Part shown: one piece after another, positions 6,079 to 35,271 of the stretch
Layout: every line of letters begins with the position of its first letter
Position numbering within the stretch: the stretch's first letter is position 1
Origin: Bacteroidales bacterium
GTDB taxonomy: Bacteria; Bacteroidota; Bacteroidia; Bacteroidales; UBA932
Direction of reading: 5' to 3'
DNA length: 43,357 nucleotides
Assembly: GCA_017415715.1 (NCBI GenBank)
Contig: JAFQFD010000011.1
Coordinates: 1 to 43,357 of the forward strand
The notes under the pieces: model-generated
What the model was told of the DNA's origin: nothing
Databases searched by the model: none
The model's input: only the letters and a program-made list of their open reading frames with translations
Made by a program: the position numbers and the translations under genes

Positions 6079-6098
6079 CTCGATTTTAAGCAAAATCT

Positions 6099-6779: not shown

Positions 6780-6789
6780 AGACGATAGT

Positions 6790-7752: not shown

Positions 7753-7769
7753 ATAAACTATCATTTTTT

Positions 7770-8336
7770 ATGGCAACAACAGCTGATTTCAAGAACGGAC
7801 TTTATCTTAACTTCAACGGCAAGCCATGCCAGATCGTATGGTTCCAGCACGTGAAGCCAGGCAAGGGTCCTGCATTCGTAAAGACAAAACTCAGAAACCT
7901 CGAGAACGGACGTATCCTCGAGAACACCTTTACAGCAGGTGCAAAGATCGAGACTATCAATGTCGAGAGAAGACCATACCAGTTCCTTTACAAGGATGAG
8001 GACGGATTCAACTTCATGCACGAGGAGACTTATGAGCAGATCCACCTTGACGCTGCTCTCGTTGACAACGCAGACCTCATGAAGGAGGGTCAGCACGTTG
8101 AGATGATGTTCCTCGCTGACGAGGAGCGCTGCCTCACTTGCGAGCTTCCTACATATGTAGAGCTTGAGGTTACATACACTGAGCCTGCAGTTAAGGGTGA
8201 CACAGCTTCAACAAACGCTCAGAAGGAGGTTACCCTCGAGACCGGAGCCATCATCATGGCACCTCTCTTCATCAACATCGGTGAGAGAATCCGTGTAAAC
8301 ACAACAGACCGTTCATACGGCGAGCGTGTGAAGTAA
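7770..8336 (+). CDS. efp: Translation elongation factor P
   Basis: EF-P binds ribosomes stalled on polyproline stretches and promotes peptide-bond formation. The 188-aa protein has the three OB-like domains in order. The KOW-like N-terminal domain carries the tip lysine K32 in the loop PGKGPAF, and the C-terminus shows the family motif NIGERIRVNTTDRSYGERV. Codon choice is strongly biased (GTT/GTA for Val, GCA/GCT for Ala), as expected for a highly expressed gene. It is the last housekeeping gene before the PUL block; the last CATG on this side lies at 8255 inside it. Confidence 0.97.
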   Translation: MATTADFKNGLYLNFNGKPCQIVWFQHVKPGKGPAFVKTKLRNLENGRILENTFTAGAKIETINVERRPYQFLYKDEDGFNFMHEETYEQIHLDAALVDNADLMKEGQHVEMMFLADEERCLTCELPTYVELEVTYTEPAVKGDTASTNAQKEVTLETGAIIMAPLFINIGERIRVNTTDRSYGERVK

Positions 8337-8361
8337 TATTTCTTCAAATATTTTTTAGGTG

Positions 8362-8412
8362 AATCCGCGGTTGGTTTCGTCATTTATGTAAATGACTAAC
8401 TAACCGCGGATT
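8362..8412. terminator. Long hairpin between efp and PUL1 (terminator or leader structure)
   Basis: AATCCGCGGTT (8362-8372) pairs with AACCGCGGATT (8402-8412). An inner stem GTCATTTA (8379-8386) pairs with TAAATGAC (8389-8396), and GTT (8374-8376) pairs with AAC (8398-8400). The result is an almost continuous 51-nt hairpin. It ends one base before the ATG at 8414 and has no T-tract after it on the plus strand. It may end efp transcription, control entry into the PUL1 operon, or occlude the first start codon. Confidence 0.55.
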
Positions 8413-8413
8413 A

Positions 8414-10975
8414 ATGTCAATACACAGAACTCTTTTGGGGCAGGGACGCAGAATCCTTGCCGGTATGCTTTCGGCAGTGATGCTGCTTGGAAGCTTCTCT
8501 TGTGGAAACGAGATCACCCCGGAAGATCCGGATGACAAGCCGGAGACTCCGGTGGGTCCGGATGACAAGCCGGATTTGAATGTCGGTGACCTCGAAATCA
8601 TAGATGGAAAGGCAAGGCTCTATGTCTGTGAGCCTGAAGCTTCGCTCAGAAGCGCCTTCGGAAATCCGATAACAGACTGGTCTGACTATACTGTCACCGT
8701 CGCTGATAAGGAATACAAGGTCCTTGTCGACGACGATGGCAAGGCGTATGTGGATGTGGATGAGTCTGCTGACGGCACCTATGCCGCAGTGCTGACTTCA
8801 GAGGCCTCAGAGCCATACGGCACAGGATATGAGGATGTGCTGCATCCTTTCGCATATGCATATCATACCGCTGCCGGCGTAGTCGCGTCTCTCCCTCAAT
8901 ACGCCTCATACAGCAAGGAGAATGGTGCGGTCCTTACATTCTCGACCGGAATGGCCCTTCTTGAAATCACCCTGAAGGGCACCGCGTCCGTGGCATCCGT
9001 ATATGTGCAGGATCCGTCAGGAAGCCTCCTGGGCGGATCAGGTACCTATGATCCTTCAAATGGCACATTCACAATGGAGAAGGGTGTGGACTTTGTCTCG
9101 CTCAACACCACCAGCAAGGGCAATTTCGTTCCGCTCACCGACGCCGGGACCAGATTCCTGGTGCCGGTCCCTGCAGGAAGCTATCCTCAGGGCCTGGACG
9201 TGCGTGTCTGCGATTCGGAGCATAAGATGTGCTCTGCCAATACAGGCGCGTTCGAGGTGGGATATGACAGGACCCACACCTTCAGGATGGAGTATAGTCC
9301 GGCCAAGGACCTCCTCTTCTTCGAGGGCTTCGACAATTTCGTCTGGGGCGGTGATGTCGTGGGCGGAAGCGCCACTTTCGGTCTCAATCCGAAGGACGAG
9401 ACAGTGACCACGACTTCATTCAGGACCCTTACCGGTTATGAGCAGGGCCTCTATCCTGTGACCTATGACGTGGCAGGCTCGGGATATATCCAGAAATCAT
9501 CTCAGATGAGCGAGATCGCAGGCAAGACCGTGTCCGAGTCCCGCAATCTTTCGTCTTCATATATAAAGAGCCGTAACGTGGGTGACTATGTCGCCCTGTA
9601 CAAGTCTCAGGAGCATCAGGGCTATATAGCTCTCGGCACTGCAGAGTCGTATAACGGCATCTTCGAGCCGGCATTCGGGGGCTCTATGATAACGATGCAG
9701 AGGGATGTGCAGATTAGCTTTGACTTCTGTCCGAGGTCAGACTTCGACGATGACCTGTATTTCACCGCCACCAGCGGTGCCAACATCGTTTCCTGCACTC
9801 TGGACGGCGTGGAGCTTGGAGCAGAGTCATTCAGCAGACTCTTCAAGAAGACTGGCTCGACTGCAAGCATACTCAGGAGCGCAGTGGAGATACCTGCGGA
9901 TATGACCTCTGCAAAGAAGTGGCATAAGGTCGTTCTTACAGTCAGGAACGCCAACGATGCGTCCCTGTTCAATATCTCTACTGCATCATCGCACACAAGA
10001 CCGGGCAGCTACGGCTTCTATCTTGACAATTTCGAGGTAAGGAGCATATATGATGCTTCAAAGAAGAAGAGCACGACTCTCAGAGTACTCTACTGGAACG
10101 TCCAGAACGGAATGTGGGCGGACCAGGACAACAACTACAACAATTTCGTGGCCTGGGTCAAGAAATATAATCCGGATGTATGCGTATGGTGCGAGGGTGA
10201 GACCATCTTCAACACTTCGGGCGACAAGGTCTACGGTACCAACAGGGTTCTTCCTGCAGCCTGGGCCACGGTGGCACAACGTTATGGACATAATTACTGG
10301 AGCAAGAGCGAGGACAGGGACAACTATCCTCAGATCATCACATCAAAATATCCGATAAACACCTTGGCCAAGATAGGACAGATCGGAGACACAGAGGCAT
10401 TTGTAGAGCACGGCTCCGGCCTTTTCGAGGTGACCTTCAACGGTCAAAGTGTATATTTCGTGTCCTTCCACGCGTTCGCGCACGCCTATGACCCAAAATG
10501 TACAAGCTCCGGCACTGACGCCCAGAACGCCTCTGCAGCATTGTATGAAGGTGATTATCATCGTGAAAAAGAGATCAGGTATGTATATGAGCAGACTATA
10601 GAAAAATATCCTTCGCAGTCCAACTGGCTTATGATGGGAGACTTCAACTCCATCTCAAGCCTGGATGCCGAGCATCACACCGGCATCAACGATACAAACT
10701 GGCTCCTGCACGACCATATCCTCGGCAAGGAATATCTGAAGGATATCATTGCGGAGAGGAATGCGCCGGAGGACTTCTTCTCCTCGATCAACGGAGACTC
10801 AAGGAGAATAGATTTCATATATGCATCTCCTGCTATGTATGAACGCATAGAAAGCGCAGCCATAGTCATAGACTCGTGGACGGTCCTCAGCCAGGACAAG
10901 AGCGTCTCTGACAAGGGCTATTTCTGCCGTCCTTCGGACCACAGACCGATTCTCGTGGACTTCAAGATGAACTGA
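8414..10975 (+). CDS. Surface lipoprotein with C-terminal EEP phosphodiesterase/nuclease domain
   Basis: This 853-aa lipoprotein has a signal peptide with lipobox ending at C30 (LLGSFSC) and an acidic Pro-rich linker containing two copies of PDDKP. Unrecognised beta-rich regions follow, including a jelly-roll-like module from about residue 300. A complete endonuclease/exonuclease/phosphatase domain occupies about 555-853, with the expected active-site set: N562 (YWNVQ), E594 (WCEGE), D743/N745 (GDFN) and D842/H843 (SDH). EEP enzymes cut phosphodiesters or phosphomonoesters in nucleic acids, sphingomyelin or inositol phosphates; the substrate here is unknown. The neighbouring gene is a stand-alone paralogue of the catalytic domain. 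Met18 is an alternative start that would give a shorter signal peptide. Confidence 0.82.
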   Translation: MSIHRTLLGQGRRILAGMLSAVMLLGSFSCGNEITPEDPDDKPETPVGPDDKPDLNVGDLEIIDGKARLYVCEPEASLRSAFGNPITDWSDYTVTVADKEYKVLVDDDGKAYVDVDESADGTYAAVLTSEASEPYGTGYEDVLHPFAYAYHTAAGVVASLPQYASYSKENGAVLTFSTGMALLEITLKGTASVASVYVQDPSGSLLGGSGTYDPSNGTFTMEKGVDFVSLNTTSKGNFVPLTDAGTRFLVPVPAGSYPQGLDVRVCDSEHKMCSANTGAFEVGYDRTHTFRMEYSPAKDLLFFEGFDNFVWGGDVVGGSATFGLNPKDETVTTTSFRTLTGYEQGLYPVTYDVAGSGYIQKSSQMSEIAGKTVSESRNLSSSYIKSRNVGDYVALYKSQEHQGYIALGTAESYNGIFEPAFGGSMITMQRDVQISFDFCPRSDFDDDLYFTATSGANIVSCTLDGVELGAESFSRLFKKTGSTASILRSAVEIPADMTSAKKWHKVVLTVRNANDASLFNISTASSHTRPGSYGFYLDNFEVRSIYDASKKKSTTLRVLYWNVQNGMWADQDNNYNNFVAWVKKYNPDVCVWCEGETIFNTSGDKVYGTNRVLPAAWATVAQRYGHNYWSKSEDRDNYPQIITSKYPINTLAKIGQIGDTEAFVEHGSGLFEVTFNGQSVYFVSFHAFAHAYDPKCTSSGTDAQNASAALYEGDYHREKEIRYVYEQTIEKYPSQSNWLMMGDFNSISSLDAEHHTGINDTNWLLHDHILGKEYLKDIIAERNAPEDFFSSINGDSRRIDFIYASPAMYERIESAAIVIDSWTVLSQDKSVSDKGYFCRPSDHRPILVDFKMN
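8527..8574 (+). repeat. In-frame direct repeat in the lipoprotein linker
   Basis: An 18-bp sequence beginning TCCGGATGACAAG occurs at 8527-8544 and 8557-8574, a 30-bp (10-residue) period. It encodes two PDDKP units of an acidic, proline-rich tether just after the lipidated cysteine. In-frame repeats of this kind can change copy number by slippage. Confidence 0.6.
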
Positions 10976-10976
10976 G

Positions 10977-11930
10977 ATGAAGAAGATTATCATTCTGGTA
11001 ATGGCCGCTGTCCTTTCCCTGGCCGTTGCCGATGCTCGGGGAAAGGAACTGAAGGTGCTCTACTGGAACATCCAGAACGGTATGTGGGCCGGTCAGGAGG
11101 ACAACTATGATGCATTCGTGAAATGGGTCAAGGCCCAGGATGCGGATGTGTGCATATGGTGCGAGGCAGAGACCATCTATTACACCGGCTCGTCAAAGCG
11201 CCTGCCTCGCGAGGACCGCTATTTCATCTGGGAAGAGGTGGCTCCGAGGTATGGACATAAACATATATATGTGGCAGGTCATCGTGACGGCTATCCTCAG
11301 GTGATCACGTCGAAGTACCCGATAGAGAACGTGAAGAAGATTGTCGGTGACGACCGGACCGTAGTGACTCACGGAGCGGGGTGGGCGCGCGTGAAGGCCT
11401 ATGGAAAGACCTTCAACATAGTATCGCTGCATACCTGGCCGCAGAAGTCGCATTTCAGGTATAAGGAGGCTTCAAAGGAAGAGCGTGACGCCAGTGCGGC
11501 ACGTAATGAGGGTGATGTCAACCGTCTGGAAGAGATGACCTGGATATGTGAGAATACGATCCTTACGGACCCTCAGGCGGAGGAGAACTACTGGCTTATG
11601 GCAGGTGACTTCAATGCCGTCTCGCCGAAGGACAACTGGGTATACAAGTTCCCCGAGGGAGATTCGAGGCTTCTTGTACACGACTATATACTGAAGAACA
11701 CCCCTTATGTGGATGTCATCTGGGAAAGGCATCCGCGCAATTTCTACACCACTACATTCGAATGCAAGAGGATAGACTTCGTCTACCTGTCTCCGGCCCT
11801 CTATGGGCTTGTGGAGGACGCCCGGATTGTCGAGGATGAGTATACAAGGCCTCACAGACACGCGTCTGTGAAGAACTTCCAGGATCCTTCCGACCATCTC
11901 CCCATCATAGTCAATTTCAAAATCAAATAA
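10977..11930 (+). CDS. Secreted EEP-family phosphodiesterase/phosphatase
   Basis: This 317-aa protein has a type I signal peptide (about residues 1-20, VADA-RG) and one EEP domain filling the rest. Active-site residues are complete: N31 (YWNIQ), E63 (WCEAE), the SLHTW histidine, D211/N213 (GDFN) and D306/H307 (SDHLP). It closely resembles the C-terminal domain of the preceding lipoprotein (shared YWN-QNGMWA and VC-WCE-ETI blocks), so the pair probably arose by duplication. One copy is membrane-anchored and this one is soluble. The start follows the upstream stop with a 1-bp gap, implying translational coupling. The substrate is unknown; a phosphorylated glycan, a nucleic acid or a lipid headgroup are all possible. 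Confidence 0.85.
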   Translation: MKKIIILVMAAVLSLAVADARGKELKVLYWNIQNGMWAGQEDNYDAFVKWVKAQDADVCIWCEAETIYYTGSSKRLPREDRYFIWEEVAPRYGHKHIYVAGHRDGYPQVITSKYPIENVKKIVGDDRTVVTHGAGWARVKAYGKTFNIVSLHTWPQKSHFRYKEASKEERDASAARNEGDVNRLEEMTWICENTILTDPQAEENYWLMAGDFNAVSPKDNWVYKFPEGDSRLLVHDYILKNTPYVDVIWERHPRNFYTTTFECKRIDFVYLSPALYGLVEDARIVEDEYTRPHRHASVKNFQDPSDHLPIIVNFKIK

Positions 11931-11936
11931 TATCTT

Positions 11937-12983
11937 ATGAAGTTAAAACTATCGACATTGATTCCGCTGGCAGTGCTCGGACTTGCCCTTGTGGCGTGCT
12001 CCAAGGACGACCGTAATGCGCCTCGCACGGATGGATTTGAGATCCACGCCCTGGCGGACTGCAGCGATGAGCCTCTGAAGGAGTTCTGCGTGGACGTCCT
12101 TGAAGGCACTTCGGAACTGTACATCAGGACTGATGTGACAGATTTCAACGTGTTCTGGCAGGATGCGGCAGGCACCCCTTGGCTGGAGGTCTCGGCTTGT
12201 AGGAAGACAGATGTTCCTTCTGTCTGGAAAGTGACCCTGAACTACATCGGCAGGTCGGAAGGTGTTCTCTACACCCGCAGGACAGGTACATTGTCCGTGA
12301 CCAAGCCTGAAGCCAATCTCGCGGCGTTCCTGTCCGTACACCAGGGGGCTATCGAAAGGACAGGCAACGATTTCTCGGACTTCAAGTATGGCTCGTGGCT
12401 CCCTGACGATGCGTCAGGTGAGATGCCTTTTGAAAGCTGGTCCGACGCCCTTAAGAAGAAGGGATTCTCTTCTGAAACTGCCCTGGCCTGCTTCGGAAGG
12501 TACGGACACCTGAAGATCGGTGACGAAAACGGCACCAAGGGAAATCTGGTGACTCCTACCAATGGCCTTCACAGATATGACTCCCTCCTTATGGTTTCGT
12601 TCAAGGTCGCTGCTTATCCGGGTGACGACAAGTCGTTCAAGGTGGATGTCGTGGGCGGCGGTGTCATCCGCGATTTCGCTGCGGAAGGCAAGACCAGCCT
12701 CACCCTTGAGACCGTGGACATCACTACCAATGCCGTGACTCAGGAGGGACTCTGGAAGCCGGAGACCAACTTCATAGTCTTCATATCATCTGTGGAGAAC
12801 AATCCTGTGGGTGTGAACACCTGTCTGAAGATTACTTCAGGAGCATCCGGAAACGGCAAGGGATCGCGTCTGTTCATAGATGACTTTTATGTAATGAAAC
12901 TGGTGCATGACCAGGACGTCGACTATTTCCTTATGAACCAGGGAAGCGGACGCGACAGGATTCTTGCCTCTATTAACGACTAA
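11937..12983 (+). CDS. PUL-associated lipoprotein of unknown function
   Basis: This 348-aa protein has a lipoprotein signal peptide ending ALVACSKDD (C21). I do not recognise a named family. The N-terminal 110 residues look like a BACON or other Ig-like domain. The C-terminal half (from about 180: RYGHLKIGDENGTKG ... SRLFIDDFYVMKL) resembles the jelly-roll carbohydrate-binding-like modules common in Bacteroidetes surface lipoproteins. It is 6 bp after the EEP gene and 8 bp before susC, so it belongs to the same operon. A surface binding role is inferred from context only. Confidence 0.7.
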   Translation: MKLKLSTLIPLAVLGLALVACSKDDRNAPRTDGFEIHALADCSDEPLKEFCVDVLEGTSELYIRTDVTDFNVFWQDAAGTPWLEVSACRKTDVPSVWKVTLNYIGRSEGVLYTRRTGTLSVTKPEANLAAFLSVHQGAIERTGNDFSDFKYGSWLPDDASGEMPFESWSDALKKKGFSSETALACFGRYGHLKIGDENGTKGNLVTPTNGLHRYDSLLMVSFKVAAYPGDDKSFKVDVVGGGVIRDFAAEGKTSLTLETVDITTNAVTQEGLWKPETNFIVFISSVENNPVGVNTCLKITSGASGNGKGSRLFIDDFYVMKLVHDQDVDYFLMNQGSGRDRILASIND

Positions 12984-12991
12984 AACACCTA

Positions 12992-15900
12992 ATGATGAAA
13001 CATAATCTGCAAATGAAATGGCTGGCAGTCCTTGCCTTTGCCCTTTCCTGCATCTGTGCATCCGCACAGTCACAGGTGAAAGGTCACGTTTACGACTCGG
13101 CCGGAGAGCCGCTCATCGGTGCCTATGTGACGATCGAAGGCACTACGACAGGCTCCATAACTGACATTGACGGAGCCTATGTCATCACAGCGAAGCCTAC
13201 TGATGTGCTCAAGGCTGAATATATGGGATTCACTCCGGCAACGGAGACCGTAGGCCAGCGCGCTGTCATAGACTTCACTCTTACAGAGGACCAGAATGTC
13301 CTTGAGGACGTCGTGGTCATCGCCTATGGTGCGGCAAAGAAGTCCGACCTTACCGGATCGGTGGCCAATGTCAAGATGGGCGACATCAAGGATGCCCCTG
13401 TGCTCTCGATCGACAACGCTCTCCAGGGACGTATCGCCGGTGCCGACTTTATGTCCACTGACGGTGCTCCGGGCTCGACCACCACAATCCGTATCCGTGG
13501 TACAAGGTCCATTTCCGCATCCAATGAGCCTCTGTTCATCGTGGACGGCATTATGGATGCGATCCACGACCTGAACGACATATCATCTGACGATATCGCC
13601 AGCATCTCTGTCCTCAAGGATGCATCTTCGACAGCGATCTACGGATCGCGTGGTGCCAACGGTGTCATCATCATCACCACAAAGAAGGGCTCCAAGACAG
13701 ACGGAAAGGTCAATATCTCATTCAAGGCGGATTTCAGCCTTTCACAGCTGCCTAAGTCGCTCGACATAATGAACGCTTCCGAGTTCGTGCAGTATCGTAA
13801 CGACTACGCATATTTCGGAGATGACAAGAGTCACGCGAACGTGAATGCGAACACTCCGCTTTCGGGCTCGGTCTATGCGGATCCGTTCAGCTACGGTGAA
13901 GGCACCGACTGGATCGGAAACATCACCAGGAACGCATTCTCGCACAACTATTCGCTCTCTCTGACAGGAGGTAACGAGCACGGATCGTTCTATGCATCTA
14001 TGGCATACAACGACACAGACGGTATCATAGACGGCAGCGGCCAGAGACGTTTCTCAGGCCGTATCAAGGGTGACAGGCAGATCTTCCCTTGGCTCAAGGC
14101 TTCATACAACGGATCATACACCTGGCGTCATACCGATGAGAACAAGGCGACAATCGGAGGTACAAGCTGGTGGAACGGAGCTCAGTACCTGTCTCCGCTC
14201 CTCAAGGTGACCGACTCCGAGAACCCTCTCTATAACCTTGGACAGAAGATCAACACTCCACGTGCTATGATCGATATGAACACCAACCAGACCAAGAGAA
14301 ACTCTATGAATCACGCAGTCAGCGTGGATATCACTCCGGTTGAAAATCTGGTGATCAACAGTACTCTGTCATATTATCTCTACTTCAGACAGCAATACCG
14401 TTATTTCCCTGGCTCTCTCCCTGCAAAGACAGAAAACGAGGGTGGACAGGCCTACAGGGCAGATTATACAGAAAATTCTATGTCGAACGAGACAACCGTC
14501 AGGTATAAGCTCGAGAAGAACGGACATACTTTCCAGCCTTTGCTCGGATTCTCGCTCTATCGTTATTCTGCCGAGAATTTCTCCCTCCAGGGACAGGGCT
14601 ATATGGATGATGAGGTGATGTGGAACAATATGAACGCCGTTCTCGACAAGGAGACCTACAGCGCCGGAACATCATACAGCAGCAAGGCCAAGATGTCTGG
14701 ATTCGCCCGTGCTGACTACAACTGGAAGTCACGCTACTACATCACGGCGACAGGCCGTTTCGACGGTGCGTCGAACTTCGCGGCCAACAACAAATGGGCG
14801 TTCTTCCCTTCAGCTGCGTTGAGGTGGAACATCTCAAACGAGCCGTTTATGGCGAGCGTCGGCTGGATCGACGACCTCTCGCTCCGCTTCAGCGCCGGTC
14901 TGACAGGTAACGACGCCATCAGCGCCTACTACTCTCTGGCAAAGCTTGACAGCACCACGGGAGGATATCTTTTCGACGGCTCACAGCCGGTATCCTTCTA
15001 CAGAAGCCGTCTCGCTGAGCCTGGACTTACCTGGGAGAAGACCGCCTCATATAACCTCGCCCTCGACTGGGCTATGTTCGGAGGAAGGGTTTCGCTCACA
15101 GCTGAGGCTTATCTGTCAAAGACCACTGACCTTCTCCTGCAGGTGCAGGTTGCAGAGCAGACCGGTTATGACAAGAGGATGTGCAACCTTGGAGAAATCT
15201 CTAACAAGGGTGTCGAGCTCTCTCTGGAGACAAGAAACATCGAGCGTCCTGATTTCCAGTGGACGACTTCATTCACCGTTTCCCACAACACCCAGAAGGT
15301 GCTTGACATAGGATCCGAGGATTTCGTTTCTGCGATGAACTGTCCGGGAAACAACAAGTATATGATGTACGGTTACGTTGAGGGATATCCTCTCAACTCG
15401 CTCTGGGGATTCAAGTACGGCGGCATCTGGAAGTCGGATGAGGAGAGGGAAAGGAACAAGCAGACCAGGGCCTATGCGAGCGAAAGCACGAAGTGGGCTG
15501 ACGGTACGCCGAGGTACTATGACATCAATCACGACGGCGTCCTGAATCAGGAAGACCTCGTATACCAGGGAAGTGCGGACCCTATCCTTTACGGAGGTAT
15601 GCAGAATACTTTCTACTACAAGAACTTCAAGCTTGGTGTCTATCTGGCGTATTCTCTCGGCGGAAAGATCTACAACTACGGAGAGTTCTACCAGTCCGGA
15701 GGTATGTACACCAACCAGTTCCGCTATATGCTGAACTCCTGGCATCCTGAGAGAAATCCTGAATCGAACATCCCTCGCGCAGGCTACACTGACGTGGCCC
15801 TCCCGAGCGACTTTATGATTCACGATGCCTCATATCTCAGACTCAAGAACATCAGCCTCGGCTACACCCTTGACCTTTCGAGGAAGTGGAAGGGAGGCAT

Positions 15901-16072: not shown

Positions 16073-16090
16073 CAGAAAAGAAATCGAGCT

Positions 16091-17587: not shown

Positions 17588-17598
17588 AAGGAGGATTT

Positions 17599-18573: not shown

Positions 18574-18578
18574 CAGGA

Positions 18579-20996: not shown

Positions 20997-21024
20997 CATC
21001 ATTAACCAACTAATAATAACTATT

Positions 21025-22962: not shown

Positions 22963-22981
22963 TTAATAAGAATATATTCGT

Positions 22982-25042: not shown

Positions 25043-25048
25043 AGACAG

Positions 25049-26134
25049 ATGCGAAAGCTTTTTATTTCATTATTAGTTGTATTGGTGAGTGCCGGTGCGT
25101 CAGCCCAGCAGCGTTATGTAGATGCTGCTGAACTGACCGTTATCGGCCAGCCTGTGCCGACGGACCGTCCTTTCGCAAGGGTGGATACCTCGGTGTACAA
25201 GTTCAACGATGCCACAATCGACCGTTATGCCAATTATTCCACCGGCCTTGCCGTGCTGTTCACGACAGACTCGCGGAATATTAAGGCACGATGGGAGACA
25301 TCCGGAGCAAATTCCGGCTCCAATATGGCGGCGATAGGCCAGAAGGGCCTGGACCTCTATATAAAGAAGGATGGCGAATGGGTGTTCGCCGGTGTAGGCT
25401 CACCCGCTATGAACAAGGCGCCATACGACAGACACGAAAGCACTTTAGTGGCTCATATGGAGCCGGGAGTCAAGGAATGCCTTCTTTATCTTCCTCTCTT
25501 CGACAAGGTGGACAATCTTGAGATCGGAGTGGATCAGGAAGCATTCATCAGGCCTCTCGCGAATCCGTTCCGCCACAAGATCGTGGTAAAGGGCTCAAGC
25601 ATCACTCACGGAGCTGCTGCGAGCCGTCCGGGTATGACATATGCAGCCCGGTTCGGCCGTGACAACGGATTCTACTGCATCAACCTCGGATTCAGCGGCA
25701 AGTCCAAGCTGCAGAAGGAATATGCCCTTCTGCTCGCTGACATCGAGGATGTGGATGCATTCATATTCGACACTTTCTCCAATCCTTCGGCAGAGGATAT
25801 ATACGGACGTTTCGATGAGTTTGTGGACATAGTACGCGCAGCTCACCCGGATGTTCCGATGATCTTCCTGCAGACGGAAAGACGCGAGACCAGAAACTTC
25901 AACACCGACAGGGAAGCCTTCGAGGCGGCGAAGCAGAAGGCTGCAGCGGAGAAGGTGCGTCAGAGGATGAAGACAGACCGCCATATCTATTTCATCACAT
26001 CGGAAGATTTCCTCGGCGATGAGCATATAGCTACTGCAGACGGGACTCATCCGACGGACCTCGGATTCACATATATGCTTGAGAGCATATCTCCGAAGAT
26101 AAAGAAGATATTGAAGAAATACGGGGTCAGATAG
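25049..26134 (+). CDS. Secreted SGNH/GDSL-family hydrolase with GxDLY-type N-terminal domain
   Basis: This 361-aa protein has a type I signal peptide (AGASA-QQ). An N-terminal beta-sandwich of the SGNH_hydro_N type carries the GLDLYIKKDGEW motif (about 95-110). The SGNH domain has catalytic S184 in GSSITHG and the D331/H334 dyad in DGTHPTDLG; the oxyanion Gly is near LGFSGKS. Such proteins are often carbohydrate esterases that remove acetyl groups. It is the last gene of the PUL1 operon. It converges on susD of PUL2 with a 1-bp gap, and its terminator lies inside that gene. Confidence 0.85.
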   Translation: MRKLFISLLVVLVSAGASAQQRYVDAAELTVIGQPVPTDRPFARVDTSVYKFNDATIDRYANYSTGLAVLFTTDSRNIKARWETSGANSGSNMAAIGQKGLDLYIKKDGEWVFAGVGSPAMNKAPYDRHESTLVAHMEPGVKECLLYLPLFDKVDNLEIGVDQEAFIRPLANPFRHKIVVKGSSITHGAAASRPGMTYAARFGRDNGFYCINLGFSGKSKLQKEYALLLADIEDVDAFIFDTFSNPSAEDIYGRFDEFVDIVRAAHPDVPMIFLQTERRETRNFNTDREAFEAAKQKAAAEKVRQRMKTDRHIYFITSEDFLGDEHIATADGTHPTDLGFTYMLESISPKIKKILKKYGVR

Positions 26135-26135
26135 A

Positions 26136-27446
26136 TTACTGATACATAGCCGAGGCAGCATCCCAGAGCGGGTGCTGCTTCAGTTTTTTATTGAGGGTGA
26201 GTTCGCGTGCCGGGATAGGGAGGACTGTGTACTTGGTGCCCAGGCCGGTCTTCCGCTCATATCTGCCTGTACGCACGAGATCAAACCATCTGAATCCTTC
26301 TCCGAAAAGTTCAAGCCGCCTTTCTTCCAGCACTGCATCGAGGAATTCCTCCTCATCAGCAGGACTTACTGCCGGAAGCCCCCTGAACTTTCTGAGTTCG
26401 TTGAGCCTGTCCAGACCTCCCTGCAGCCCCTGGCCTTCCGCGCTTATGAGGTACATCTCCGCAAGGCGTATCATATACAGCGGATCCTGCCCGGCATCTC
26501 CGCTGCAGTATTTGTTCACTACATTGTTGTTGCTCTGGACATCGACGGAAATGTCTTTCCTCTTGTCTGAAGGTCCGAACATATCCATAGCCTCCTGGGT
26601 CGGGCAGAACGTATATGAGCCTCCCACCGGTGACTCCTTCGTGTAATAATACGAACTCATATTCACCCTTCCTTCGTGGATGAGGTTGGCGAATGTGAAT
26701 ATCTCTTCCTTGTTCTCTCCGCCTCTGAAGATGGTCTCGAAGTCAGCCAGAGCGAAGTCCGGGTCAGTTATCAGTTCTTCAGCGAGAGCTGCCGCTTCCG
26801 CTTTTCTGCCCATAGCCAGGTATGTCCTTGCCAGAAGCGCCTTGGCAGCCTGACGGGATACGAGATTCTTATGGGTGAAGTCTGCAGAATATTCCACAGC
26901 TTTACGGAGCTCGGATACCACGAATTCCCAGGCCTGCGCCTCGGGAGTCTGTCCGACTTCTTCGGTCTCGTTCCCGGTGATGATCGGCACATCCCTCCAT
27001 CGGGCGACTATGTTGTAGTAATACAGTCCTCTGAAGAAATGTCCCACTCCGAGATATTCATTCTTGTCCGGTGATTCCGGCAGCCCCTCGATGATGCTTA
27101 TATACCTGTTGATCTGGTACATGCCGGCATAGAATCCGTTCCACGGGCTTGTGACGATGCTCTGGTTGGGGGCGATCGCCATCTCCACCAGGAGCTTTGG
27201 CGTGTTCACGCCCGACGCTCCCGGACGGATCAGGTCGGAGCCTATGATGTCGAACAGTGCCCATCCGTTGAACGTCGGCTTGTACTGTGCGATGTTGTAT
27301 ATGCCGTTCATCAGCAGCTGTGCGTGTTCATATGTGACCTGGTCGTCGGGCACGGCATTGTGAGGATACTGGTTCAAGTATCTGTCACATCCTCCTGCGG
27401 CAAGCAGAAGGACTATACCTGTTATGATAATGCCTGTCTTCTTCAT
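26136..27446 (-). CDS. SusD/RagB-type surface lipoprotein (PUL2)
   Basis: This 436-aa lipoprotein (LLAAGGC, C20, then DRYLNQYPHNAV) is shorter than the PUL1 SusD. It shows the SusD helices (GHFFRGLYYYNIVARWRDVP, AAKALLARTYLAMG) and the C-terminal EERRLELFGEGFRWFDLVRTG and YTVLPIPARELTLN blocks. It is paired with the SusC ending 4 bp upstream. The last ~12 codons overlap the PUL1 terminator on the other strand. The substrate is unknown. Confidence 0.94.
   Translation of the reverse strand: MKKTGIIITGIVLLLAAGGCDRYLNQYPHNAVPDDQVTYEHAQLLMNGIYNIAQYKPTFNGWALFDIIGSDLIRPGASGVNTPKLLVEMAIAPNQSIVTSPWNGFYAGMYQINRYISIIEGLPESPDKNEYLGVGHFFRGLYYYNIVARWRDVPIITGNETEEVGQTPEAQAWEFVVSELRKAVEYSADFTHKNLVSRQAAKALLARTYLAMGRKAEAAALAEELITDPDFALADFETIFRGGENKEEIFTFANLIHEGRVNMSSYYYTKESPVGGSYTFCPTQEAMDMFGPSDKRKDISVDVQSNNNVVNKYCSGDAGQDPLYMIRLAEMYLISAEGQGLQGGLDRLNELRKFRGLPAVSPADEEEFLDAVLEERRLELFGEGFRWFDLVRTGRYERKTGLGTKYTVLPIPARELTLNKKLKQHPLWDAASAMYQ
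26155..26189 (+). terminator. Intrinsic terminator of PUL1 embedded in the opposing susD
   Basis: GCAGCA (26155-26160) plus CCC (26162-26164) pair with GGGTGCTGC (26170-26178), with one bulged T and a 5-nt loop. A TTTTTT run follows at 26184-26189. It lies about 20 nt after the SGNH hydrolase stop and inside the last codons of the minus-strand susD, so the same DNA encodes that protein's C-terminus. Confidence 0.7.
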
Positions 27447-27450
27447 ACCG

Positions 27451-30400
27451 CTAGAATTTAAGTGTCATTCCCAGAGAGAATGTCCTCGGCTGAGGTGTCC
27501 ACATACAGTCCAGACCCATTCTGGTGGCATCAAGACTGGTATTCACTTCGGGATCTATATATCTGTAAGGAGATATCAGGAAAAGATTGTCTGCCTGCAG
27601 ATAGACGCGCAGGGACTCCAGACCTGCCTTCTTCATTATGCCTGACGGGAGGCTGTATCCCAACGACAGACTTCTGCAGCGCAGATATGAGGCATCGTGG
27701 AGATATCTGGTGGTCTTGAACAGCGTCGAGTTCCACATCATTCCGTATATGGCTCTCGGCACCGTGTTGCTCGTGCCCGGTCCCGTCCAGCGGGCGAGCG
27801 CTTCCGAGCGCTGCGCCGGCCACTGTCCGTTGCCGAGCCTCAGACCTCCTGTCCAGGTCTGATAGAGCTGGTTTCCATAAGAGAATGTGAGGAAAATGTT
27901 GAGGTCGAGTCCGCGCCATTTGAATGTGTTGCTGAAGCCTCCTGTAAACAGCGGGTTGGCAGATCCGACGAACTGGCTGTCGTTGACTGTGTCTATCCTG
28001 CCGTCTCTGTTGACGTCTTCATATCTGATGTCACCTGCCCTGACCCCTTCCTTGTATAGCGTTTCAGGCACTTCTTCATCAGTCTGATAGATGCCGAGCA
28101 TCTTTATGAGATAGAAACTGCCGACTTCTTCGCCGACCTTGAGGGCGTGGTAGTCGTCGGTGGTCAGGATGTCGTCATCGTCCGTGAGCGATGTGAGCCT
28201 GTTCTTGACAAAGGCTATGTTGAAGTCGCCTGTCCATCTGAAGTCGCTGTATGAGAGGTCGCCCCCGAGCGTGATCTCCAGACCGCGGTTGCGGATGGAG
28301 CCGATGTTGCTGGTCTTCATCGTAAATCCTGTCGTGGCAGACGTCGGCTTGTTGTATAGCAGGTCCTTGGTGTCCTTCTGGAAGATGTCGACGGTGACCT
28401 TGAAGGAGTTGGAGAAGAGTGACAGGTCCATACCTATGTCATATTGATGCGCCTTCTCCCACTTGAGGTCCCTGTTGCCCTGGGTCATCAAGGCTATTCC
28501 GTTCTCATTCAGGTAGTTGTATCCGCCGTTGGCAAGAGCCTGATATGCATATGAGCCGATGCCTCCCTGATTTCCAGTAGTTCCGTAGCTTGCGCGCAGC
28601 TTGAGGTCCGTCCTGCCGTCCTTCCAGAAATCTTCCTCCGAGATCTTCCATCCCGCCGAGACGGAAGGGAAGAATCCGTACCGGTGCTCAGGTGCGAACT
28701 TGGACGATCCGTCCGCACGTGCGGACAGTGTAAGAAGATATTTTCCGCGGTAGTTCAGTGTACTTCGCAGCAGGAACGACTGCAGGGCCCAGGATGACAG
28801 ACCTGTCGTCACGTCTAAGTATTCCGCCGCCACGGAGTTGACGTCAAAGTCCTCGGACGGGAATCCCTGTCCGGTCTGTGATGCTGTAGAGGATGCATCT
28901 TTCTGGAAAGAATGTCCGAGCATCACGTCAAAGGAAAGACCGCACTTCGCGTGATGCTTGTATGTAAGGATATTGTCGACGATTATTGAAGTATATGCCT
29001 TGCGGGCGTCTGTCAGTTTTCCGATAGAGTTGCCGTACATATGCTTCGCGCTGTAGTAGATGTGGTCTTCGGCATACATAAAGTCGCCTCCGACACTGGT
29101 CTTGAATGTAAGCCCGTCAATGATGCTGAACTGCAGGAATCCGCTTCCGTACATCCTGTAGCTGCGGTTGTATACCTTCTGCTCCCTGATGGCCTGCAGC
29201 AGGTTGTAGTGCAGCAGGTCCACATCCTTTATCGTATAAGACCCGTCCGGGCGGAACGGTGTGTCCCAGGGACGGTGCTCGAGGGAGTGAGTCAGGATGG
29301 ATGTGCCCATATTTCCGTCCGGCACCCTGTTGTTGTGGGTGTATGTTCCGCTGACATTGATGCCGGCAGACAACCATTTCTTTATATCTGTAGCTACATT
29401 GGCCCTGACACCGAACTTGTCCATACGGTTTCCGATGACAACTCCTTCATTCTGCCGCGCATTCGCCGAGATATAGTAGCGGCTTTTGTCCGAGCCTCCC
29501 GATATGGATGCGTTGGCTTTCCAGGTCACGGCGGTCCTGAACATCAGGTCCACCCAGCTGAACTGCTCTCTGTCCGGGTATGGATTCACCATATGGGCCA
29601 CGGAAGCTCCGGTCTGGCGGTTGTAGTTGTCTATGGCCTCGTTCTGCACTTCGAGATACAGGTCGGCGTCGGCGACTGCCAGCTTGTCCAGGGACGGTAT
29701 ATATGCCAGACTCATAGAAGCGTCTGCGCTCACCCTCGGCCTTCCCTTCTGTCCGGACTTTGTGGTGATGAGGACTACTCCGTTAGTGGCCCTGGAGCCG
29801 TAGATGGCGGCCGATGCGGCGTCCTTGAGCACCTGGATGGACTCTATGTCGTCCGGATGTATGTCCGTCAGGGAGTTCAGGGCCTCTCCGCCCCATCCTC
29901 CGGCATCACCGGTGGTGTTGCTTATAGGCACTCCGTCCACGACATATAAAGGCTCGTTGCCTGCGGTGAGCGATCCTATACCTCTGATGCTGACCCTGTT
30001 ACGTGATCCGGGCGTTCCGGACGAGCCTGTGATGTATACTCCGGCGATCCTGCCCTGAAGCAGGCCTTCCGGACTTTGAGTCGTCATCTCGACCCTCTCA
30101 TCTGTGCGGTATGTGCTGATTGCCGATGAAATCTCCCTCCTCGGCATAGTTCCGTATCCGACCACTATGGCCTCTTCCAGCAGATTGACAAATTGATCAT
30201 CCTCTTCCTTTGCCATCTTGTCGAGCAGGTCCTTCTGCGCATCGACCGGCATAATTATGAGGATCATCCTGCCCTGGAATATGGCCTGCATACCTGTGCC
30301 GTCAAGTATTGATGCCATAACAGCGTCCAGGCTTCCTTTCTCGGGCAGACTGACTTTCTCCTCGACGTTGAGAAGCCCCTCGTTATAAGCCACAGTATAT

Positions 30401-30546
30401 CCGCTCTGCGCCTCGATATGCTCGAACACCTTGCGCAGCTTCATACTTTCACGCGGGAATGTCACCGTCTGCTCCTGTGCATCAAGACTGAGAACAGACA
30501 GCATCCCGGCAAGGATACATAAGGTGGCTGTGAGATATGGTCTCAT
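27451..30546 (-). CDS. SusC-type TonB-dependent transducer with STN domain (PUL2)
   Basis: This 1031-aa protein has a signal peptide (LSLDA-QE) and an STN (secretin/TonB N-terminal) domain at about 26-100 (LRKVFEHIEAQSGYTVAYN ... MILIIMP), the part that contacts a FecR anti-sigma factor. A linker with a TonB-box-like EEAIVVGYG precedes the plug (LLQGRIAGVY, VSIRGIGSL, LYVVDGVP) and the barrel. The carboxypeptidase-D-like domain that normally lies between STN and plug is absent; only about 25 residues bridge them. It starts 6 bp after fecR, so signalling and transport genes are co-transcribed. Confidence 0.93.
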   Translation of the reverse strand: MRPYLTATLCILAGMLSVLSLDAQEQTVTFPRESMKLRKVFEHIEAQSGYTVAYNEGLLNVEEKVSLPEKGSLDAVMASILDGTGMQAIFQGRMILIIMPVDAQKDLLDKMAKEEDDQFVNLLEEAIVVGYGTMPRREISSAISTYRTDERVEMTTQSPEGLLQGRIAGVYITGSSGTPGSRNRVSIRGIGSLTAGNEPLYVVDGVPISNTTGDAGGWGGEALNSLTDIHPDDIESIQVLKDAASAAIYGSRATNGVVLITTKSGQKGRPRVSADASMSLAYIPSLDKLAVADADLYLEVQNEAIDNYNRQTGASVAHMVNPYPDREQFSWVDLMFRTAVTWKANASISGGSDKSRYYISANARQNEGVVIGNRMDKFGVRANVATDIKKWLSAGINVSGTYTHNNRVPDGNMGTSILTHSLEHRPWDTPFRPDGSYTIKDVDLLHYNLLQAIREQKVYNRSYRMYGSGFLQFSIIDGLTFKTSVGGDFMYAEDHIYYSAKHMYGNSIGKLTDARKAYTSIIVDNILTYKHHAKCGLSFDVMLGHSFQKDASSTASQTGQGFPSEDFDVNSVAAEYLDVTTGLSSWALQSFLLRSTLNYRGKYLLTLSARADGSSKFAPEHRYGFFPSVSAGWKISEEDFWKDGRTDLKLRASYGTTGNQGGIGSYAYQALANGGYNYLNENGIALMTQGNRDLKWEKAHQYDIGMDLSLFSNSFKVTVDIFQKDTKDLLYNKPTSATTGFTMKTSNIGSIRNRGLEITLGGDLSYSDFRWTGDFNIAFVKNRLTSLTDDDDILTTDDYHALKVGEEVGSFYLIKMLGIYQTDEEVPETLYKEGVRAGDIRYEDVNRDGRIDTVNDSQFVGSANPLFTGGFSNTFKWRGLDLNIFLTFSYGNQLYQTWTGGLRLGNGQWPAQRSEALARWTGPGTSNTVPRAIYGMMWNSTLFKTTRYLHDASYLRCRSLSLGYSLPSGIMKKAGLESLRVYLQADNLFLISPYRYIDPEVNTSLDATRMGLDCMWTPQPRTFSLGMTLKF

Positions 30547-30552
30547 AAACCT

Positions 30553-31446
30553 TTATCGGATATAGATGTCCTTTCCTTCGATTGTATATTCCATTCCAGG
30601 AACGAGATGGCATACGGCGGTGAGGACCTCCTCGAGAGACTCGCCGTTGATGAATTTGGCAGTGAGCACTGCCTTGTCGTATGCGTCTGTAGTGAGATGT
30701 ATGCTTACATCGAACTTCCTTGCTACCATCCTGAACGCCTCTGCTACAGGCTGTGAGATTATGCATAGATGACCGTCCTTCCAGGCTGTGAGGTCTTCCG
30801 GAGAGGTCTGGGTCATGACGACGGCACCGCTGCTTCTGTCCAGAGAGTATGTGTCGCCCGGCTTGAGCTCGGCCTTCTGTCTTCCGGAGGTCCTTTCCAC
30901 GCTGACTGCACCGCTGCAGAGCGTTGTGCTTGCAGAATGTCCGTCCGGATATGCATTCACGTTGAATGTCGTTCCGTGAGCTGTGACTCTGATGTCCTGA
31001 GTCCTGACTGTGAACGGATGTGACTTGCTCGATGTCACTTCGAAAAGCGCCTCACCTTCGAGTTCCACAATCCTCTTCCTTCCGAATGATTCCGGATATT
31101 TCAGGACCGATCCTGCGTTGAGGGTCACCTTGGAGCCGTCAGGAAGGACGACCTCGGTGGTTTCTCCGTTGTCAGTGCTCCTTTCGAGCCCTGCGGTCAT
31201 TCCGGCATCCTTGCGGCTGTCATACAGATGTATGCCCACAGGGATCATTATGAGCGCAGCTGCAGCGGCCGCCCAGGCTATGACTCTCCTGAATACGGGC
31301 CTCTTCACTGTCGCTGTCTTCTGTCCGTACGCATTCTCGATTTCCCTGATCTTGGACTGCACGGCAAGGTATGAAGCCTCGACCTCACTGGTCGTGACTT
31401 CAGATGTGTCTATGTTTTCCCATCCCTTGAATTTATATGCAGTCAT
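30553..31446 (-). CDS. FecR-family anti-sigma factor
   Basis: This 297-aa protein has a cytoplasmic N-terminal segment (about 1-53), one TM helix (about 54-76, RVIAWAAAAAALIMIPVG), a periplasmic FecR domain (about 90-190, EVVLPDGSKVTLNAGS, VTAHGTTFNVNAYP) and a C-terminal DUF4974-type STN-like domain (about 225-297). It is expected to hold the upstream-encoded ECF sigma factor until the STN domain of the SusC signals substrate binding. The cytoplasmic part lacks the usual long N-terminal helical domain but has normal length for Bacteroidetes. Confidence 0.92.
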   Translation of the reverse strand: MTAYKFKGWENIDTSEVTTSEVEASYLAVQSKIREIENAYGQKTATVKRPVFRRVIAWAAAAAALIMIPVGIHLYDSRKDAGMTAGLERSTDNGETTEVVLPDGSKVTLNAGSVLKYPESFGRKRIVELEGEALFEVTSSKSHPFTVRTQDIRVTAHGTTFNVNAYPDGHSASTTLCSGAVSVERTSGRQKAELKPGDTYSLDRSSGAVVMTQTSPEDLTAWKDGHLCIISQPVAEAFRMVARKFDVSIHLTTDAYDKAVLTAKFINGESLEEVLTAVCHLVPGMEYTIEGKDIYIR

Positions 31447-31458
31447 ATTTTCTCTGTA

Positions 31459-31470
31459 TCAATATATTGA
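31459..31470. promoter_or_regulatory. Perfect 12-bp palindrome upstream of fecR
   Basis: TCAATATATTGA lies 13-24 nt before the fecR ATG in the 45-bp sigma-fecR gap. It could be an operator or a small RNA hairpin. An AT-rich palindrome this short can also arise by chance. Confidence 0.25.
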
Positions 31471-31491
31471 CGAAAGACAGTCCCTCTTTAC

Positions 31492-32034
31492 CTAAAGGAA
31501 AATCGCAATCGCCTTCGTTATTTTCCTCAGTTCGCACAGGGCGAGGTAAATGTGGTTCTCGACTGTCTTCCGGGAGATGCCGAGTTCCTGGGCGATCTCC
31601 CCGTTGGACTTACCCTCAAGACGTGAGAGGATGAATATCCGTCTCCTCTTCTTAGGCATCCGGCGTATCATCTCCGCCACCTGGATCTCCGTCTCCTTGG
31701 CGAAGAATTCGCTTTCAGTTCCGTATGGGTTGTCTGTCTCGCTGACGTCGGTGAGCGGTATGCTGACCTTGTTGGTGCGGCCGTAGTCTATGGCCGCGTT
31801 GCGGCTCATAGTATATAGATAGGCTCCGAATGACTTGATCATAGGAAGCAGTTCCCTGTGGAGCCAGATCTTCACGAAAATGTTCTGTGCCAGGTCCATA
31901 GCATCGTCCTTGCTGGAAATGAAATGCCCGAGGAAGCACCTCACCTTGGGGTAATAATGCTCGAAGACTCTTCTGAAAGAGCCTTCGTCCCCCTTGGCGA
32001 TTGCCTCGAGCAGTATTTTTTCGTTTTCCAGCAT
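31492..32034 (-). CDS. ECF-type RNA polymerase sigma factor (PUL2 regulator)
   Basis: This 180-aa sigma-70 family factor carries region 2 (about 20-85: DDAMDLAQNIFVKIW, AYLYTMSRNAAIDYGR) and region 4 (about 120-172: MPKKRRRIFILSRLEGKSNGEIA, then the recognition helix ISRKTVENHIYLALCELR). It belongs to the Bacteroidetes PUL-associated ECF group. The next gene downstream is its FecR anti-sigma factor. It starts only 12 bp after the der stop with no visible promoter between, so basal transcription may come from the housekeeping operon. Confidence 0.94.
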   Translation of the reverse strand: MLENEKILLEAIAKGDEGSFRRVFEHYYPKVRCFLGHFISSKDDAMDLAQNIFVKIWLHRELLPMIKSFGAYLYTMSRNAAIDYGRTNKVSIPLTDVSETDNPYGTESEFFAKETEIQVAEMIRRMPKKRRRIFILSRLEGKSNGEIAQELGISRKTVENHIYLALCELRKITKAIAIFL

Positions 32035-32046
32035 AGATGTGTCGTG

Positions 32047-33354
32047 CTATTTCTGTCTGAAGAATATGTGGACAGGGCATCCGAGGAAGTCGAACTTCGA
32101 GCGGAGCTTGTTTTCCAGGAATCTTCTGTATGGCTCGCGGATGTACTGCGGCAGGTTGCAGAAGAACGCGAATGACGGAGAGCGTGTCGGCAGCTGGGTT
32201 ATGTACTTGATCTTGATGTACTTGCCCTTCCATGCAGGTGGAGGGTAGTTCTCGATCTCCGGCAGCATCTCTTCATTGATCTTTGATGTAGGGATCTTGC
32301 GTGAGTAGTTTTCGTATACGTGTGCAGCTGCGTCGAGCACGTCCATGATCCTCTGCTTGTTGATCACCGATGTGAAGATGATCGGGAGGTCGTTGAACGG
32401 TGCGAGGCGCTCCTTGATGGCAATGGTATACTCCTTCATTGTGTTGCTGTCCTTCTCAATGGTGTCCCACTTGTTCACCACGATCACGCAGCCCTTCTTG
32501 TTGCGCTGGATCAGGTTGAAGATCGCCATATCCTGCGCCTCGATGCCGGTCTGCGCATCCACCATGAGGATGCAGACGTCAGAGTGCTCGATCGCGCGGA
32601 TGGATCTCATCACCGAGTAGAACTCCAGGTCTTCGTGTACCTTCGCCTTCTTTCTCATTCCGGCTGTATCCACGAGCATGAATTCGTGACCGAACTTGTT
32701 GTAAAGCGTTGCTATGGAGTCACGTGTAGTTCCGGCTATTGGAGTGACGATGTTCCTCTCCTTGCCGAGCAGGGCGTTTGTCAGCGATGACTTGCCGACA
32801 TTCGGCTTTCCTACGATGGTGAAGTGAGGAAGGTCAGGACGCTCGTCCTGGTCAGGATCTTCTGCAGGAAGCTCCTTGACTATGGCGTCCAGAAGGTCTC
32901 CCGTGCCGCCTCCGTTGGCAGCAGAGATGCTGTAAACCTCTCCAAGACCAAGTGAATAGAACTGGAACGAATCGAATATCTTCTCTCCTGAGTCGATCTT
33001 GTTCACTGCAAGGACAACCGGCTTGCCGCTCCTTCTGAGCAGGTCTGCGATCTCCTCGTCATAGTCAGTGATGCCGGTGCCGGCCTCAACCATAAAGAGC
33101 ACGACGTGAGCTTCCTCAATGGCCAGTACCACCTGCTTGCGGATTTCCTCTTCGAAGATGTCGTCTGAATTGGAAGTGTATCCGCCGGTGTCGACAACAG
33201 AGAACTCTGTTCCGCACCACTCACATCTTCCATAATGTCTGTCGCGGGTCACACCCGCGGTCTCGTCTACGATCGCCTGTCTCATTCCGACAAGGCGGTT
33301 GAAAAGTGTGGACTTACCCACATTGGGGCGTCCAACAATAGCTAAAAGGCTCAT
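32047..33354 (-). CDS. der: Ribosome-assembly GTPase Der (EngA)
   Basis: Der is an essential double-GTPase needed for 50S subunit maturation. The 435-aa protein has two tandem G domains with P-loops GRPNVGKS (start of protein) and GKPNVGKS (about residue 180), G3 motifs DTGG and DTAG, NKxD-type motifs (NKID, NKWD) and a C-terminal KH-like domain ([16 protein letters not shown]). The frame extends 8 codons upstream, but Met at 33354 gives the conserved N-terminus [16 protein letters not shown]. It contains the first CATG sites right of the depleted block. Confidence 0.97.
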
Positions 33355-33418
33355 AATAAATAGTTTAATTGTTAACATCCCGCCTCACGGCGGAATCGCT
33401 CATCCCTATCCGGGAACG

Positions 33419-33664
33419 TTATCTGCAGTCGGCTCCGCAGCTTGCGCAGCCTCCTTCGTCACACTTAGGGGTCCCGTCTTCGTTCTTGGGACCCCAAAGT
33501 CTGATTTCTTCTTCTTTGGCGCACTTGATGCCTCTCTTGCGCATCTCCTTGTTGTTCTCGATCTCAGTCTCGGGAAACTTTCCGTCCTTCCTGAAGATGA
33601 TGTTGAAGCAAAGGCCTATGACGCAGAATGCAACCAGTGCGAGTGCGGCAAGAAATATCTCCAT
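33419..33664 (-). CDS. Small single-TM membrane protein with Cys-rich tail
   Basis: This 81-aa protein has one N-terminal TM helix (about 4-22, LAALALVAFCVIGLCFNII), a charged middle (KEEEIRLWGPKNEDGTP), and a tail with four closely spaced cysteines (KCDEGGCASCGADC) that could bind a metal or a cluster. Its ATG overlaps the prs stop by one base (TAATG on the minus strand), which indicates coupled translation. I recognise it only as a conserved-looking hypothetical protein; no function is assigned. Confidence 0.75.
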   Translation of the reverse strand: MEIFLAALALVAFCVIGLCFNIIFRKDGKFPETEIENNKEMRKRGIKCAKEEEIRLWGPKNEDGTPKCDEGGCASCGADCR

Positions 33665-34614: not shown

Positions 34615-34633
34615 ATGATATGAGGGTTTTGTG

Positions 34634-35242: not shown

Positions 35243-35271
35243 AAAAACTTGTCTACCTTTTGAAACGTGCG

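Follow-up and report, generated by a model that had tools for sequence, protein, structure and literature searches.

Foreign DNA is usually detected by its G+C content or by broad k-mer use, and exchange between close relatives can escape such detection. The present work concerns the 43,357-bp contig JAFQFD010000011.1 of a ruminant-gut Bacteroidales bacterium (assembly GCA_017415715.1), called here the window, in which a double polysaccharide-utilisation locus (PUL) located between efp and der, the block, has lost almost every CATG tetranucleotide. The closest described phenomenon is the avoidance of Type II restriction sites (Shaw, Rocha and MacLean 2023, PMC10359461). In that survey, as in our block, a short palindromic target of restriction-modification (R-M) systems is depleted well beyond composition, and the depletion partly tracks the carriage of the matching system; the survey reports no significant difference between plasmids and core genome for 4-bp palindromes. 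Concerning the enzymes, excerpts of two other reports state that iceA1 is 52% identical to NlaIII (PMC2749054) and that CATG is the recognition site of IceA (PMC12366791). We consider it likely that the block was horizontally acquired from an unsampled CATG-avoiding congener, with a CATG restriction system as the probable cause of its CATG loss.

The window, which is the entire contig C4 of a draft metagenome-assembled genome (MAG; 2.58 Mb, 56 contigs, 86% complete), contains 107 CATG sites: 44 up to position 8258, 6 in the block and 57 from position 32231 on. A first-pass annotation of the same DNA had listed the six block sites exactly, and had given about 44 for the left flank and more than 50 for the right one. 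Expected numbers were calculated with a maximal-order Markov model and results are expressed as the observed/expected ratio (O/E). In the stretch 8259-32230, 6 CATG were observed vs 120.7 expected (O/E 0.05, z -20.5), the lowest value among the 256 tetramers; the left flank shows 44 vs 59.0 (O/E 0.75) and the right one 57 vs 78.5 (O/E 0.73). By Poisson statistics, 6 sites or fewer would occur with a probability of about 2e-43 (6e-32 with the genome's own rate), so that chance is refuted. As also claimed at first reading, GATC (O/E 0.83) and most other 4-base palindromes remain common in the block. The exception is CTAG (O/E 0.08); since it is low across the sampled part of the same genome too (0.17 in 1.03 Mb), its loss is not block-specific. 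The one-change neighbours of CATG are elevated in the block (CATC/GATG, O/E 1.45; CATA/TATG, O/E 1.39). The G+C content is 0.524 in the block, 0.515 in the left flank and 0.521 in the right one, and the sharp composition change at the block edges is present for CATG and absent for G+C.

To control for codon use, 1000 shuffles of synonymous codons were made gene by gene. They predict 88.3 ± 6.4 coding CATG in the 14 genes of the block (lowest value 69), where 6 were observed, and 95.4 ± 6.4 in 14 flank genes, where 96 were observed. All three frames are hit. When CATG is split as C-ATG, a codon NNC precedes ATG in 4 of the 99 NNY-Met pairs of the block, vs 68 of 94 in the flanks; the control, NNC before Ile, amounts to 196 of 265 in the block. 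When it is split as CAT-G, CAT is used in 2 of the 36 His-before-G pairs (control, 56/91; flanks, 17/42) and the 34 others are CAC. When it is split as CA-TG, NCA before TG is found in none of 43 cases (control, 460/1818; flanks, 11/24). These values are in agreement with the proposal, made from the letters alone, that the word disappeared by synonymous choice in more than one frame, with NNC avoided before Met and His before G written CAC. Removal of the word with the protein kept suggests that selection acted on the DNA site itself. Together, the Markov count and the synonymous shuffle rule out chance, codon use and G+C content as causes of the CATG loss.

The orthologous PUL of another congener, G643 (G, C and L numbers designate genomes, contigs and loci), matches window 8335-26134 (78.7% identity) and 26162-31278 (75.7%). 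Its CATG content is normal, 264 sites vs 316 expected in the 43 kb of the contig that were read. In the aligned block columns (78.9%), G643 has 129 CATG, the window has 5 of its own and none is shared, whereas in a control flank aligned with locus L104 (81.1%), 25 sites are shared and 19 and 21 are unique. At the 129 G643 sites, the window displays 40 TATG, 16 CCTG, 12 CATA and 11 CACG. The prominence of TATG and CATA, the commonest states (52/129), and their elevation in the block would suit a mutational process of the donor, such as deamination of methylated C in CATG or biased mismatch repair, that erased the word without any restriction. We regard this process as quite unlikely: C-to-T changes alone are insufficient to explain CAC in 34 of 36 His-before-G pairs and the complete lack of NCA before TG (0/43), and CATC/GATG is elevated still more than CATA/TATG. 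A CATG avoidance common to PULs was also rejected. Among the 30 SusD matches of the genome, the 28 located outside the window (two are pieces of one gene) have an O/E of 0.34-1.10, so that a loss like that of the block is not general among the host PULs, and those of G643 and L104 show none comparable.

The limits of the block are given independently by an empty site in a sister genome, G641 (the genome of L105; record JAFUJQ010000041.1, a roe deer rectum MAG). By blastn against G641:C81 (L282), window 2349-8338 corresponds to 1-5990 (90.6% identity), window 32048-36541 to 6128-10581 (92.5%), and window 36845-43357 is matched at 96.1%. In G641, efp and der are neighbours, 137 bp apart, and window 8339-32047 is therefore absent there; only chance-level matches to the window were found in the 137-bp spacer. 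The outermost flank CATG sites lie 84 and 184 bp away from these limits, and the block sits between efp and der, where the first-pass annotation had placed the edges of the depletion. The gene list likewise agrees with its ten plus-strand and four minus-strand genes. The features of the region are the following:

8339..32047: insertion of 23,709 bp that G641, the sister genome, lacks (blastn)
8259..32230: CATG-depleted stretch, 6 sites (12906, 17002, 19244, 23336, 27120, 30814)
11001..23000: centre common to the window, G437 and G641, CATG-poor in all three
7770..8336, plus strand: efp, left host flank
8414..10975, plus strand: endonuclease/exonuclease/phosphatase-fold protein, 853 aa (PF03372 at the C end)
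10977..11930, plus strand: endonuclease/exonuclease/phosphatase-fold protein, 317 aa (PF03372)
11937..12983, plus strand: protein of 348 aa without Pfam match
12992..16072, plus strand: SusC-like TonB-dependent transporter of PUL 1 (Pfam)
16091..17587, plus strand: SusD-like protein of PUL 1 (Pfam)
17599..18573, plus strand: BACON-domain protein (Pfam)
18579..20996, plus strand: DUF5689 and BACON protein (Pfam)
21025..22962, plus strand: IPT/TIG-domain protein (Pfam)
22982..25042, plus strand: glycoside hydrolase family 3, GH3 (Pfam)
25049..26134, plus strand: GxDLY/GDSL esterase (Pfam)
26136..27446, minus strand: SusD-like protein of PUL 2 (Pfam)
27451..30546, minus strand: SusC-like transporter of PUL 2, weak STN match (Pfam)
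30553..31446, minus strand: FecR anti-sigma factor (Pfam)
31492..32034, minus strand: ECF sigma factor (Pfam)
32047..33378, minus strand: der (EngA), right host flank

Pfam matches were obtained for 13 of the 14 block genes, and two SusC/SusD pairs, ECF/FecR, GH3 and a GDSL esterase identify the block as a PUL. An inverted repeat with 15-nt arms and a 21-nt loop (window 8362-8412) stands directly before the first block gene and is perhaps a terminator or a control hairpin.

The gene order der-ECF-FecR-SusC-SusD-GDSL-GH3 recurs at L104, L108, L111, L112 and L113, all congener loci; four of them have normal CATG along their whole length and L111 includes a low stretch. A PUL can thus be accommodated at this site beside der, shared flanks offering a simple route for exchange. 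An assembly or binning chimera, in which a piece of a CATG-free genome was joined to the MAG, would be compatible with an incomplete draft known here from its assembly alone and with a left efp-block junction not seen in another genome. Such an artefact is very unlikely, given that both edges coincide with gene ends and that the order der-ECF-FecR-SusC exists in the five other loci. The block has three properties of a horizontally acquired genomic island: it is absent at the same site in a close relative, it has sharp edges in CATG, and its identity to a more distant lineage exceeds that of the rest of the genome, this last result covering the block centre, with the ECF-to-GH3 part outside it.

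Elsewhere in the host genome, 58 further stretches were sampled (1,031,161 bases, 40% of the genome). Their pooled CATG O/E is 0.767, close to the values of the two window flanks, and CATG is the second-lowest tetramer after CTAG, indicating a host with a mild CATG deficit of its own. Among 1536 windows of 5 kb, the only ones below 0.37 are those at L010 (contig C10, 7118-12952), a CATG-poor RHS-repeat locus with matches to DUF6443, RHS_repeat and Tox-URI2, which is perhaps another import from a CATG-avoiding lineage. The first-pass annotation had named a similar depletion in most other non-housekeeping regions of the genome as evidence against its reading; in the 40% sampled, this one stretch is comparable. 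None of the three R-M proteins described below was found in this 86% complete MAG, where the search barely extended to further families of methylases; it does encode an N6_Mtase (PF02384). The host O/E and the failure to find the three proteins disfavour a long residence of the block in its present host, which had been offered as an alternative to acquisition. Selection in this host on the block alone, for example through regulation or phase methylation at CATG, would account for a depletion that stops at the block edges, but it is hardly credible: the depletion covers 14 genes on the two strands and each of the three frames, the 28 other SusD matches show a weaker depletion, if any, and the sister genome lacks the block.

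A near-identical copy of the block centre is present in G437, a congener that carries an R-M system. Window 9299-25020 is 91.4% identical to G437:C32 overall and 93-97% in the per-kb bins from 11 to 23 kb; the centre (11001-23000) is 93-99% identical to G641 per kb, except for 84% in the bin at 14001. By comparison, 13 other matches between the window's genome and G437 (at least 400 bp, in the sampled parts) have 64-81% identity, and the left flank up to lytB has 65-75%. On G437:C101, identity to the window reaches 90% in efp and 84% in der, against 75% in lytB beside efp, so that the flanks may have been exchanged too or may simply be more conserved. Locus L107, found via the SusC of PUL 2, lies in G640, the same assembly as G437. 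Its identity to window 17.5-22.5 kb is 94-98.6% (500-bp bins) and then falls to 92, 84, 82, 75% and lower, the value of 92% lying directly before GH3 and those of 84% and below inside and past it. L107 becomes CATG-rich from position 16911 inwards, within GH3. Both the G437 and the G641 copies have a CATG-poor centre and two CATG-rich ends, whereas the window's version of the PUL is CATG-poor along its entire length. In the shared centre, the window has 3 CATG and G437 has 4, none in common; these numbers are small and are as expected if the sites re-formed separately after transfer. A CATG-avoiding source is the probable origin of the centre, which has probably passed between three species or more. 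Plasmid records yielded no near match to window 14000-22500 (phage records being outside the search). G437 was set aside as direct donor, its copy being a mosaic in common with G641; we consider it a witness and not a proven donor.

The genus contains lineages in which the word is almost missing. CATGAA was counted on the forward strand of 400 genomes drawn from it, and genomes below 75 per Mb were called depleted. The counts range from 9 to 626 per Mb, with 22 genomes below 50, 32 below 75 and 45 below 100; the own genome has about 436 per Mb, and 306 of the 400 are lower. In 16 readable stretches of G437 (233 kb), 90 CATG were found vs 1007 expected: eight stretches have none and eight have 2 to 48, 11 of the 16 have 0 to 2, and 48 of the 90 sites are concentrated in one 8.4-kb contig. 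For 13 chosen G437 stretches (the CATG-richer L171, L173, L175 and L181 excluded), z is -54 for CATG and -18 for the next word, CTAG. The O/E of CTAG is 0.22 in the chosen G437 stretches, beside 0.17 in the sampled own genome. Low observed/expected counts were also obtained for G384 (4/83 and 4/44, two samples), G291 (9/94, 29/94, 4/79 and 4/73), G570 (0/17), G542 (2/28), G637 (0/39), G318 (6/32) and locus L128 (0/53 in 16 kb); one 3.7-kb contig of G555 has 20 vs 28. Using the SusC of PUL 2, 41 loci were found, some of them near-duplicates of each other. Of the 37 exceeding 10 kb, examined in windows of 4 kb, 8 mix CATG-free and normal parts, 1 is free throughout, 23 are normal and 5 intermediate; one of the mixed loci, L141, belongs to Parapedobacter, and without the two Parapedobacter loci 7 of 35 are mixed. 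CATG-rich islands exist in the nearly CATG-free G437 (L107, 8484-16911; C32, ~103000-110068), one of them with an edge inside GH3, and are the mirror image of the block.

A CATG-poor centre common to the own genome, G641 and G437, one of which has a CATG-type R-M operon, could also mean that the avoidance was acquired in transit, a mobile PUL cassette crossing many CATG-restricting hosts being itself selected to lose the word. This is unlikely. The homologous PULs are CATG-normal in the congeners G643, L104, L108 and L113, the Pfam matches of the block include no conjugative or mobility gene, and in G437 the loss extends beyond the PUL, as seen in the 11 of 16 stretches with 0 to 2 CATG.

A search for CATG methyltransferases and R-M systems in the genome and its relatives, suggested by the first-pass annotation, revealed an NlaIII/IceA-family operon in G437 and G384 and none in the own genome. 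In G437, it encodes an ICEA-family nuclease (PF05315, E 6e-117), an N6_N4 methylase and a D12 methylase. In both genomes the nuclease gene adjoins that of the N6_N4-type methylase and the D12 gene is on the opposite side, interrupted in G384 by the contig end. Among the 400 genomes, PF05315 was found in 4 (G384, G437, G611 and, as a contig-end part, G286) and the N6_N4-type methylase in 4 (G384, G411, G437 and G611). Besides G437, six genomes (G634, G286, G411, G382, G611 and G384) have the D12 methylase at 61-75% identity, and a further 17 have D12 matches only below 40%. With carriage defined as at least 60% identity, 5 of 7 D12 carriers are depleted vs 27 of the 393 others (Fisher 4.5e-5, a value without phylogenetic correction), and five depleted genomes, G437 among them, contain the recognised system or a part of it. 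As a general explanation for the remaining depleted genomes, methylases were rejected: PF01555 was found in 4 of 20 depleted genomes vs 11 of 20 CATG-rich ones and PF02086 in 3 of 20 vs 9 of 20, the sets being 20 hand-chosen genomes of the 27 depleted ones without known proteins and 20 CATG-rich ones, with the depleted ones less complete.

Three related loci were observed. In L206 (G411:C26, 239-1507), a 422-aa open reading frame stands between the two methylase genes, in the place of the ICEA nuclease; it has no confident Pfam match (EVE and RE_Alw26IDE are sub-threshold) and is possibly a nuclease swap. In L204 (G634:C22, 1495-2499), a lone D12 methylase is found in a CATG-depleted genome, without nuclease or second methylase; its neighbours are the same as in G437, presumably aminotransferase-like and LptF/G-like genes, and it is possibly an orphan remaining after nuclease loss. 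In L260 (G555:C2, 50-2334), a PDDEXK_13/REase-ARP nuclease lies upstream of a different D12 methylase, also in a CATG-depleted genome, and the pair is a candidate for another restriction system.

The empty site in G641, the nearly CATG-free congeners and the R-M operon in G437 thus support the reading, already put forward at first inspection, of a block acquired from a CATG-restricting background. In the sequence of events that we propose, the donor would be a congener whose genome avoids CATG, selection having stripped the word by means of synonymous codons over a long residence. This selection would most likely be self-restriction by an NlaIII/IceA-type R-M system, which would punish each incompletely methylated CATG, restriction being then the cause of the donor's avoidance. 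A donor tract with the block would then have reached the efp-der junction of a mildly CATG-poor host, probably by recombination, at a site where other congeners likewise carry a PUL beside der. After the transfer, a few CATG sites would have begun to re-form.

Several observations weigh against this acquisition. The host is itself mildly CATG-low (0.767). The Pfam matches of the block genes include no integrase, no tRNA is found at the block, and direct repeats common to both edges do not exceed 8 bp, the same length as in shuffles; attachment sites of this kind are not required if the entry occurred by homologous recombination. For the ECF-to-GH3 part, no close CATG-free relative was found among the material searched. 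The fall of identity to L107 starts about 1 kb before the CATG switch. In the 50 kb of G437:C32 that were read (96 CATG vs 241 expected), CATG-rich parts of the PUL at about 81-90 and 103-110 kb frame its CATG-poor centre, and the G437 copy is 97.9-99.5% identical to the copies in G641 and L106; mosaic and near-identical to these, it suggests that G437 may itself be a recipient. Concerning restriction, 27 of the 32 depleted genomes, many of them incomplete, are without the recognised proteins (for example G403, G570, G542 and G637), G611 carries all three genes yet has 263 CATGAA/Mb, and G382 carries the D12 gene yet has 202, neither being depleted. The methylases PF01555 and PF02086 are rarer in depleted than in CATG-rich genomes, and the CATG specificity of the genus's enzymes is assigned by their family.

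A wider interpretation, rather unlikely, is that gain and loss of CATG restriction act as a valve on gene flow in this genus, PUL segments purged in restricting lineages passing freely into both restricting and tolerant species and spreading preferentially. It fits the sharing of one centre by three species, of which one has the CATG-type operon, but the CATG-rich ends beside the centre in G437 speak against a strict valve. If it held, the missing word would record the donor, the edges and the rough age of each transfer.

In the present case, a single purged word outlines a transfer between congeners of equal G+C content, the missing CATG being a readable stamp of the genes' origin, and the re-formed sites may serve as a clock. 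As the lineages of the genus span nearly CATG-free to CATG-rich genomes and 7 of 35 loci are mixed, the effect of restriction on gene flow between gut species is directly testable. In the open-licence PMC literature available in part, itself a weak basis for an absence, no description of CATG-free blocks or of CATG avoidance in Bacteroidales was found. Site avoidance and gene transfer were already known; the novelty is the one-word watermark outlining transfers within a genus. Unlike in the survey of Type II avoidance, a 4-bp word is nearly erased here from one sharp-edged chromosomal block in a tolerant genome. As for NlaIII and IceA1-HpyIM, the nucleases of G437, G384, G611 and G286 (contig-end part) belong to PF05315, but the nuclease gene differs here in being accompanied by two methyltransferase genes, N6_N4 and D12. 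Finally, the block resembles horizontally acquired Bacteroidales PULs by its SusC/SusD pairs, ECF sigma/anti-sigma factors, GH3 and esterase in an inserted segment, and differs from them in having no conjugative or integrase Pfam match and in being recognised by one lost word rather than by G+C content.

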